NCBI GenBank assembly: GCA_903878415.1
Contig: CAIRHO010000069.1
Coordinates: 1-39,786 of the forward strand
Origin: an uncultured Actinomycetes bacterium
Lineage (GTDB): Bacteria > Actinomycetota > Actinomycetes > Nanopelagicales > Nanopelagicaceae
Reading direction: 5' to 3'
DNA: 39,786 nucleotides
The translations under genes were made by a program, and so were the position numbers. The notes under the pieces are model-generated. The model was not told the DNA's origin. It made no database searches and saw nothing but the letters and a program-made list of their open reading frames with translations. Shown here in pieces: positions 20,791 through 23,876 of the stretch (its first letter is position 1; each line of letters starts with the position of its first letter).

Positions 20791-21753
20791 TTAAATTCGA
20801 ATTGGGTTCTGTCCGCGAGCAATTAACCGCTCAAAGTGAGCATCACGTCTCTCTTCAAAGCGGTTTGATTCCTTTTTAGCACTGGCTAAGAAATCTACGA
20901 TTTCATCGCGTGCTTTTAAACCATCTCCAGATAAGTCACTTCGGTCATAAATATTCCAGGCTCGTAAAACTGGTGCAATTACATCGTCAAGGTGTTGCGG
21001 TAAATCGTAAATTCCAGCTAGCGCAATCTGCACTGATTTACGTCCAAAGCCTGGAAGTTCGTGGCCAGGCATTTTAAAGTCAGTTACCACATCAGCGATA
21101 GCCCGCATTGATGCATTTGGCTCCATATCTAGCGCTGCACCAAGTAAATTTCGATAAAAGAGCATATGTAAATTCTCATCTAAGGAGACCCGAGTCAACA
21201 TCTGCTCGCAAATTGGATCATCTGAAATCTTTCCGGTATTACGGTGGGAAATTCGAGTCGCTAGCTCCTGAAAACTAACATAAGCAACGGTATGCAACAT
21301 GTCGTTATCGTAAGAAGTTTCAAAACCGATTTGCATATGTGCCATTCGAAGGTCTTCGAGTTCAACAGGATCAACACCTCGGGTGGCCATTAAATAATCG
21401 CGCAACACAATGCCGTGCCGATTTTCTTCTGCAGTCCATCGATTGATCCAAGTTCCCCATGCGCCATCACGACCCATAGATAGTGCAATTTCAGTGTGAT
21501 AGCTCGGTAAATTATCTTCAGTTAATAAATTTAAGACTAAAGAGTCCTGTGCAATTGCAGTCAATTTAGAATCTTTAGCTTCCCACGCATCGCCATTCAA
21601 TGGGCCAGGAAAATTCTTGCCTTCGCTCCAAGGCACATACTCGTGCGGATACCAATCTTTTTGAACGGCAAGGTGTCGATCTAATTCTTTGCCAACGATT
21701 GGTTCTAGGTCGCGGATGAGCCGAGATTGAATTGCTGGATCAATTGCAGTCAT
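20791..21753 (-). CDS. Acyl-ACP desaturase (soluble di-iron type)
   Basis: A 320-residue soluble fatty acid desaturase of the plant stearoyl-ACP / mycobacterial DesA family, which introduces a cis double bond using a di-iron centre, oxygen and ferredoxin. The metal ligands are visible: E79, E110 and H113 in EENRHG, E163, and E193 with H196 in DENLH. It is helical, ferritin-like and has no membrane segment. An excellent GGAGG lies six bases before ATG 21753. Two tandem palindromes just upstream indicate tight control. It follows the trmD cluster but probably has its own promoter. Confidence 0.9.
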   Translation of the reverse strand: MTAIDPAIQSRLIRDLEPIVGKELDRHLAVQKDWYPHEYVPWSEGKNFPGPLNGDAWEAKDSKLTAIAQDSLVLNLLTEDNLPSYHTEIALSMGRDGAWGTWINRWTAEENRHGIVLRDYLMATRGVDPVELEDLRMAHMQIGFETSYDNDMLHTVAYVSFQELATRISHRNTGKISDDPICEQMLTRVSLDENLHMLFYRNLLGAALDMEPNASMRAIADVVTDFKMPGHELPGFGRKSVQIALAGIYDLPQHLDDVIAPVLRAWNIYDRSDLSGDGLKARDEIVDFLASAKKESNRFEERRDAHFERLIARGQNPIRI

Positions 21754-21769
21754 CTTTTCCTCCGTTAAC

Positions 21770-21799
21770 TTACGCTAGCGTAGGTTACGGTACCGTAGG
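21770..21799. promoter_or_regulatory. Tandem 15-bp palindromic operator upstream of the desaturase gene
   Basis: Two copies lie side by side: TTACGCTAGCGTAGG (21770-21784) and TTACGGTACCGTAGG (21785-21799). Each contains a perfect 12-bp palindrome, and their centres are exactly 15 bp apart. The two copies differ at only two positions, and these are symmetry-related, so each stays palindromic. Minus-strand TACGGT within the second copy could be the -10 element. This arrangement fits a repressor binding as two dimers, most likely TetR family. Confidence 0.72.
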
Positions 21800-21813: not shown

Positions 21814-22500
21814 TTAATCGCCTCTGGCGTTTTGGCTTCTGATCTCTGCTTGTTCTAAGCGCCACTTTGCAATTGCGCCGTGATTTCCAGAGGTCAATAC
21901 CTCCGGAACCTGCAAGCCACGCCATTCCGGTGGCTTAGTGAAAGTTGGATACTCGACTAAGCCAGCTTCGTTATGTGATTCTTCAATTAAAGATTCTGGG
22001 TTTCCAATGACGCCAGGAATCAACCGAACGACCGCTTCAGTAATAGCTAACGCGGCTACTTCCCCACCGTTTAATACATAATCCCCGATTGAAACTTCAT
22101 GAACTCGCACTTTTGGCTGGCTCTGATAAAAAGTTGTAACTCGAGAATCGATGCCTTCATATCGCCCACACGCGAAAATTAAATGCTCGGATCTAGCGAA
22201 TTCGGTCGCCATTTTTTGGCTGAATTTCTTGCCGGCCGGTGTAAGAATTATTAAATCAGAGATAGTTTGCGATGTTGGCAATACTGAATCAATAGCATCG
22301 CCCCAAACCTCAGCTTTCATCACCATTCCGGCTCCGCCACCATAAGGGGTGTCGTCTACGGTGTGATGGTTATCGTCGGTAAAGTCGCGTAAATTAAGAA
22401 TTGCGAAATCGATTAAACCACTCTCTTTAGCCTTGCCAATCAAAGATAATTCAAGTGGCGCAAAATACTCAGGGAAAATTGTGATTGCTGATATTTTCAT
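21814..22500 (-). CDS. trmD: tRNA (guanine37-N1)-methyltransferase
   Basis: A 228-residue SPOUT methyltransferase forming m1G37 next to the anticodon of tRNAs reading CNN codons, which prevents +1 frameshifts. Seen are DDTPYGGGAGMVMKAE, LTPAGKKFSQ, CGRYEGIDSRV and the knot region SIGDYVLNGGEVAALAITEA. The start overlaps the end of rimM by four bases. In most bacteria rplS (L19) follows trmD; here the desaturase gene is found instead. Confidence 0.97.
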   Translation of the reverse strand: MKISAITIFPEYFAPLELSLIGKAKESGLIDFAILNLRDFTDDNHHTVDDTPYGGGAGMVMKAEVWGDAIDSVLPTSQTISDLIILTPAGKKFSQKMATEFARSEHLIFACGRYEGIDSRVTTFYQSQPKVRVHEVSIGDYVLNGGEVAALAITEAVVRLIPGVIGNPESLIEESHNEAGLVEYPTFTKPPEWRGLQVPEVLTSGNHGAIAKWRLEQAEIRSQNARGD

Positions 22501-23241: not shown

Positions 23242-23784
23242 TTACTCCGCTGGAGTTTCTGCAACAACTTCGGCTGGAGTTTCTGCAACAACTTCGGCTG
23301 GAGTTTCTGCAACAACTTCGGCTGGCGCTTCTGCAACAACTTCGGCTGGAGTTTCTGCAACAACTTCGGCTGGTGCGTTCTTCGCTGCTAATTTTTCAGC
23401 GGCGCGCTTTTTCATTGTGGTTGCGCCATCTTTTGGCTCATCCATAGCTTTCTTAACTGCAGCTTCATAAGCTTCACGCTTATGTGGTTTAGCTGCTGCA
23501 ACTTTTAGCGTTCCTTCGCTACCTGGTAAACCCTTAAATTTCTGCCAGTCACCTGTAACTTTTAAAATTGCCTCCACAGCAGGTGTTGGAAGTGCGCCGA
23601 CTGTTAACCAATACTGTGCTCGCTCAGATTTAACTTCAATGAAAGAAGGTTCTTGTCCTGGTGAGTATCGACCGATCTCTTCAATCGATAGACCATTTCT
23701 AGCTTTACGTGAATCTGAAACAACAATTCGGTAGTGCGGTGTGCGAATCTTTCCGAAACGCATCAATCTAATTTTTACGCCCAC
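23242..23784 (-). CDS. rpsP: 30S ribosomal protein S16 with repetitive C-terminal tail
   Basis: The first 80 residues or so are a normal S16 ([53 protein letters not shown]). About 100 residues of Lys/Ala-rich and then Ala/Glu/Pro/Val-rich tail follow, ending in repeated PAEVVAET units. Tails on S16 are common in actinobacteria; this one is encoded by nearly identical DNA repeats. GTG 23784 is the start: AAGGAG lies nine bases before it, and S16 proteins begin at this point. Confidence 0.95.
23249..23368 (-). repeat. Five tandem 24-base repeats in the rpsP tail
   Basis: Five head-to-tail 24-base units; four are identical and the fourth along the plus strand (23321-23344) differs at two bases. 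Each encodes the octapeptide PAEVVAET or its variant PAEVVAEA. A partial sixth copy continues at 23369. Identity at the DNA level implies recent expansion by slippage or unequal exchange. Confidence 0.93.
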
Positions 23785-23876
23785 TAGGGGTTTCTCCTTG
23801 AAAGTAATCGAACCAGCAGAGTTCAACTCGAGTGGGTATTCGAGCGAGCAAAGTAGTTCTAGGTTTATTTAATCCG

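Follow-up and report, generated by a model that had tools for sequence, protein, structure and literature searches.

The tandem palindrome at positions 21770 to 21799 is very probably the double operator of an Rv1019-type TetR repressor of desaturase expression that acts in trans, its binding, repression and effector being predicted. As judged from sequence comparison, fatty-acid desaturation in this uncultured member of the Nanopelagicaceae is most likely controlled by a TetR-type repressor with its gene at a separate genomic location, through a site that is widely conserved in the class. What was directly observed is the site and its conservation, the association with desaturase and partner genes, and the joint occurrence with one TetR.

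The tandem lies in the 60-bp gap between trmD and a desaturase gene, 16 bp upstream of the desaturase ATG, in the window, i.e. the whole stretch of 39,786 nucleotides that was analysed. The features of the region are as follows.

20791..21753, minus strand: soluble acyl-ACP desaturase gene, the putative target (320 aa; match to FA_desaturase_2, PF03405, E 2e-73)
21759..21763, minus strand: GGAGG, read from the sequence as the desaturase ribosome binding site, located between the start codon and the operator
21770..21784, no strand assigned: operator unit 1 (predicted), core TACGCTAGCGTA at 21771-21782
21785..21799, no strand assigned: operator unit 2 (predicted), core TACGGTACCGTA at 21786-21797, its centre 15 bp from that of unit 1
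21814..22500, minus strand: trmD, upstream of the desaturase gene and codirectional with it; the 60-bp gap follows the trmD stop codon

As the preliminary description had stated, 21770-21799 reads TTACGCTAGCGTAGG TTACGGTACCGTAGG, two adjoining 15-bp units that differ solely at positions 6 and 9 (C..G in unit 1 and G..C in unit 2), and each unit contains a perfect 12-bp palindrome (21771-21782 and 21786-21797). The GGAGG ribosome binding site is also present in sister genomes. Within the trmD–desaturase gap, a promoter scan detected no sigma-70-like promoter and a terminator scan no terminator-like site. Separately, the stretch 23260-23380 of the window holds repeats of about 24 bp (GGAGTTTCTGCAACAACTTCGGCT), arranged head to tail, in a minus-strand reading frame (23242-23826), giving an Ala/Glu/Val-rich tail.

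The rarity of the element was assessed in the window and in the genome. Perfect 12-bp palindromes number 24 in the window, against 13 +/- 3.4 in Markov shuffles, and the pair at 21770-21799 is the only one with members 12-20 bp apart, an arrangement found 0.02 times per window in the shuffles. In the 1.36-Mb genome (approximately 90% complete) there are exactly two copies of TTACGNTANCGTA, both at 21770-21799. The degenerate pattern YTACGN4CGTAR yielded a total of 11 matches in the genome against 13 in the reversed control, and thus the tandem arrangement alone is unusual. The nine remaining matches all fall within open reading frames, one of them in glmU near the TetR gene considered below, and were rejected as further operators.

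The preliminary description took the paired change between the units as strong evidence of selection for symmetry, and this argument did not survive. The test set comprised all TACGN4CGTA-NNN-TACGN4CGTA tandems in the loci fetched, 58 unique sites; as these were gathered by requiring the TACG-N4-CGTA frame, the informative positions are the four inner ones, those of the linker and those flanking the tandem. The outer pair of inner bases was complementary at a frequency of 0.27 versus 0.33 in shuffled columns, the inner pair at 0.20 versus 0.33 and both pairs together at 0.07 versus 0.11, and the window was alone among the 58 in having two perfect palindromes in one tandem. The closest relatives, G002 and G004, carry TACGCTATCGTA at the same place and G001 carries TACGGTGCCGTA, so that the symmetry is broken in all three. 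No sign that pairing is under selection was seen in the inner palindrome bases, and the symmetry-preserving change was discarded as evidence. The conserved element is TACG-N4-CGTA twice, 15 bp apart, and the perfect palindromes of the window are best regarded as a coincidence superimposed on this frame.

Conservation of the frame itself bore out the preliminary description, which had proposed a palindromic operator in two copies at 15-bp spacing with a possible lipid-related role, and would have been refuted by a lack of conservation before desaturase orthologues together with an absence of other genomic sites. The site is retained before orthologous desaturases of congeners, of three further genera in the family and of other families in the class, and the predicted double operator recurs before desaturase-type genes class-wide: of 198 genomes of the class, 108 carry the exact tandem, the reversed-pattern control being mostly zero. 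Other genomic sites are indeed absent from the window genome (approximately 90% complete), but in relatives the sites are abundant. By tblastn classification, 60 of 63 unique tandems (those for which sequence was available, not a random sample) stand directly upstream of a desaturase, reductase or NMO-family gene. The downstream gene encodes a membrane desaturase (PF00487) in 36 cases, an acyl-ACP desaturase in 11, a DesA3-type desaturase in four, a ferredoxin-type reductase in five and an NMO-family protein (PF03060) in four, with no such gene in three; at most 100 bp separate the majority of tandems from the gene start. The PF03060 (nitronate monooxygenase-like) genes follow the tandem directly in four genomes (L127:3347-3373, L129:3156-3182, L136 and L218). 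The three tandems with other or unassigned neighbours are at L134, L220 and L221. That at L134 (G074) adjoins what may be an acyl-CoA ligase gene, while those at L220:1858 (G115) and L221:1913 (G205), both from one family, precede secreted-looking, repeat-rich proteins rather than lipid genes.

The distribution of the site points to one regulator. In many relatives a TetR gene forms one operon with the desaturase gene preceded by the tandem; in the mapped loci the two genes are adjacent and codirectional. For 31 of the 36 membrane-desaturase tandems, the locus includes the orthologous TetR gene. The window genome encodes three TetR proteins, and the orthologue of the operon TetR is encoded on a different contig, flanked by ispE and glmU (G000:C28; L053:7270-8010, minus strand), with about 59-69% identity to members from across the class. 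Its recognition-helix region, VSKPxxYEHFG, is nearly invariant in 43 TetR orthologues. Among family genomes with the desaturase and this TetR, the site is present in 14/14 (12 exact, two with one mismatch), whereas among the 43 that have the desaturase but in which this TetR was not detected, the exact core is absent throughout and a single genome matches with one mismatch. The association is significant by genome (Fisher p 2e-12, a value that overstates the evidence because the genomes are related) and by genus (4/4 vs 0/6, p 0.005). This agrees with the earlier proposal of a TetR-type regulator acting in trans, as the ispE-glmU TetR tracks the site within the family and, in the window genome, is encoded on another contig. 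The accompanying expectation of a TetR gene with its own copy of the site held in part: the window genome has no tandem copy at the ispE-glmU TetR gene, but in many relatives regulator and target share an operon behind the site.

In the window genome (approximately 90% complete) no match to the PF00487 desaturase was found, though the ispE-glmU TetR is kept; nor was an NMO gene that could serve as a second target, or a reductase partner carrying the tandem. The same reduced arrangement is seen in G028, from another family, in which the TetR is present, a PF00487 match is lacking and the tandem precedes an acyl-ACP desaturase gene.

A connection to mycobacteria is suggested by the TetR Rv1019, which, by the title of a 2022 paper (10.1111/febs.16647), is reportedly a negative regulator of the Rv3230c-Rv3229c (desA3) operon. 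In the Mycobacterium-like genome G027, the orthologue of the ispE-glmU TetR is 59-61% identical to the window-genome protein and has glmU and an Mfd-like gene as neighbours, a setting which we take to be that of Rv1019 in the M. tuberculosis gene order. The putative Rv1019 orthology of the TetR is based on this synteny in G027 and on the M. tuberculosis gene order. G027 has tandems before both reductase and DesA3-type desaturase genes; these are separate tandems (L122:3595 and 4815), preceding a ferredoxin-type reductase gene and the adjacent desaturase gene, respectively, so that the two genes may be controlled individually. The window in turn has two TAC-N6-GTA sites, 15 bp apart and directly upstream of a fatty-acid desaturase gene (PF03405). 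A comparative study of 2012 had predicted clusters of two to three TAC-N6-GTA palindromes, closely and evenly spaced, upstream of Rv3229c, Rv3230c and Rv2524c (fas), and tied the motif to gene clusters induced by palmitate (PMC3388012).

An AlphaFold2 model of the TetR, built from 24 orthologues (pLDDT 82.6, pTM 0.77), found its best match in M. tuberculosis FasR (6o6o, 6o6p and 6o6n; 32-34% identity), which binds long acyl-CoA (PMC7382501). As the structural match is an acyl-CoA sensor, an acyl effector is plausible for the ispE-glmU TetR, and by analogy acyl-CoA may be its signal.

We propose that two repressor dimers would bind the two TACG-N4-CGTA sites. With centres 15 bp apart, or about 1.4 helical turns, they would sit on roughly opposite faces of the helix. 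TetR bound just upstream of the ribosome binding site, on an operator that would overlap the promoter as we place it, is predicted to hold down transcription of the acyl-ACP desaturase gene, the repressive sense being borrowed from the title on Rv1019. Long-chain acyl-CoA or acyl-ACP probably alters DNA binding, so that desaturation would follow membrane demand.

Other readings were weighed against this repressor model. That the palindromes arose by chance, or form a structural element such as a terminator with no dedicated binding protein, is hardly credible. Single perfect 12-bp palindromes are, as mentioned above, not rare in the window, and single sites lack genome-wide enrichment; however, adjacent pairs are hardly expected in a window of this size, no terminator-like site was found in the gap, and the recurrence of the same tandem before the same gene types in many families already contradicts chance. 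A distinctly unlikely reading is that the TetR acts at the tandem as an activator rather than a repressor, as FasR does for fas. M. tuberculosis FasR is indeed described as an activator (PMC7382501), and the model match makes the window TetR its structural neighbour. Against this, only 16 bp separate the operator from the start codon, and the majority of tandems are no more than 100 bp from the gene start, a position more usual for repression. Moreover, the title on Rv1019 names a negative regulator.

We regard it as very unlikely that the tandem is instead bound by the FasR orthologue, on the grounds that both TetRs are FasR-like and both sites share TAC-N6-GTA. The window genome does encode a FasR orthologue (G000:C38; L054:7410-8057, plus strand), the recognition-helix regions are alike (SKPVLYQHF versus SKPVIYEHF), and the mycobacterial TAC-N6-GTA motif also spans the fas promoter (PMC3388012), its fas sites presumably being FasR sites. 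However, FasR-like second matches occur in family genomes both with and without the site, so that FasR does not track it; in contrast, the ispE-glmU TetR does, and shares an operon with its targets. Furthermore, the oligonucleotide crystallised with M. tuberculosis FasR contains ACTCGCCAGTA, a loose fit to the TAC-N6-GTA frame and not TACGN4CGTA (PMC7382501). FasR was thus set aside as the regulator on both distribution and site sequence.

A second motif was found in the same gap. The sequence ACTCGCGAGTAAC, which resembles the M. tuberculosis FasR oligonucleotide, occurs in the trmD–desaturase gap with at most two mismatches in 25 of 43 family genomes without the TetR and in 0 of 14 with it, the latter having at least four mismatches. 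Loci with ACTCGCGAGTAAC upstream of the desaturase start are L026, L028, L033, L047, L175, L178, L181, L182 and L192-L204. Similar FasR-like sites precede thiolase genes (L245, L232) and an acyl-CoA dehydrogenase-like gene (L243), as named by eye from the translations. Across genomes the pattern was no more frequent than its reversed control, and its matches in birA fall in the conserved codons SYWRV; for both reasons the motif is suggestive only. Control of the desaturase may have passed between paralogous acyl-CoA-type TetR sensors, the Rv1019-type TetR being lost and FasR-like ACTCGCGAGTAAC replacing TACGN4CGTA in the same gap, an idea that we hold tentatively and would not yet favour. In such a hand-over the TAC-N6-GTA frame would have been kept, with mainly the inner bases changed. 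Since the pattern does not exceed its control, the hand-over of sensors is a lead and not a result.

With the Rv1019-type assignment, an orphan TetR conserved next to ispE/glmU across much of the class acquires a likely site and target. The assignment also suggests that the desA3 circuit of mycobacteria is one branch of a more ancient desaturase regulon of actinobacteria. In the streamlined window genome this regulon appears to be reduced to a single operator, offering a clean case for the joint retention or loss of operator and repressor. The tandem and its TetR also constitute a testable handle on the adjustment of membrane fluidity in bacteria that are hard to culture.

Several known systems resemble the one described here. 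MadR (Rv0472c) is likewise a TetR-family protein exerting acyl-CoA control over genes of the acyl-ACP desaturase family (desA1/desA2), but its consensus, TCTGTGxxxxxxxGT, is unlike the window site and is absent from the 60-bp trmD–desaturase gap, and MadR was excluded as the regulator by this difference in motif. DesT of Pseudomonas, a TetR protein that regulates an operon for an acyl-CoA desaturase, follows a similar control logic; it is set beside our system as an analogy only, and no membership is implied. FasR (Rv3208) is the closest relative of the window TetR in solved structure and in sequence, and its system also has several inverted repeats in one promoter and the TAC-N6-GTA frame. 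However, it belongs to a separate orthologous group (approximately 31% identity) of which the window genome has its own member, its site has other inner bases (ACTCGCCAGTA), and it is described as an activator of fas-acpS. The closest counterpart is the Rv1019/desA3 system, with the same palindromic frame, evenly spaced clusters before desaturase (desA3) and reductase genes, a TetR beside glmU and action in trans, the last predicted here. It differs in that its target is the membrane-bound DesA3, in contrast to the soluble acyl-ACP desaturase encoded after trmD, and in that the window genome has a single tandem, with no reductase partner bearing the site found there. A relative of both repressor and site is thus already known in the Rv1019-type circuit common to mycobacteria; the window element is most likely a further operator of this type, placed on a soluble desaturase and with its regulator gene remote from every target in the streamlined window genome.
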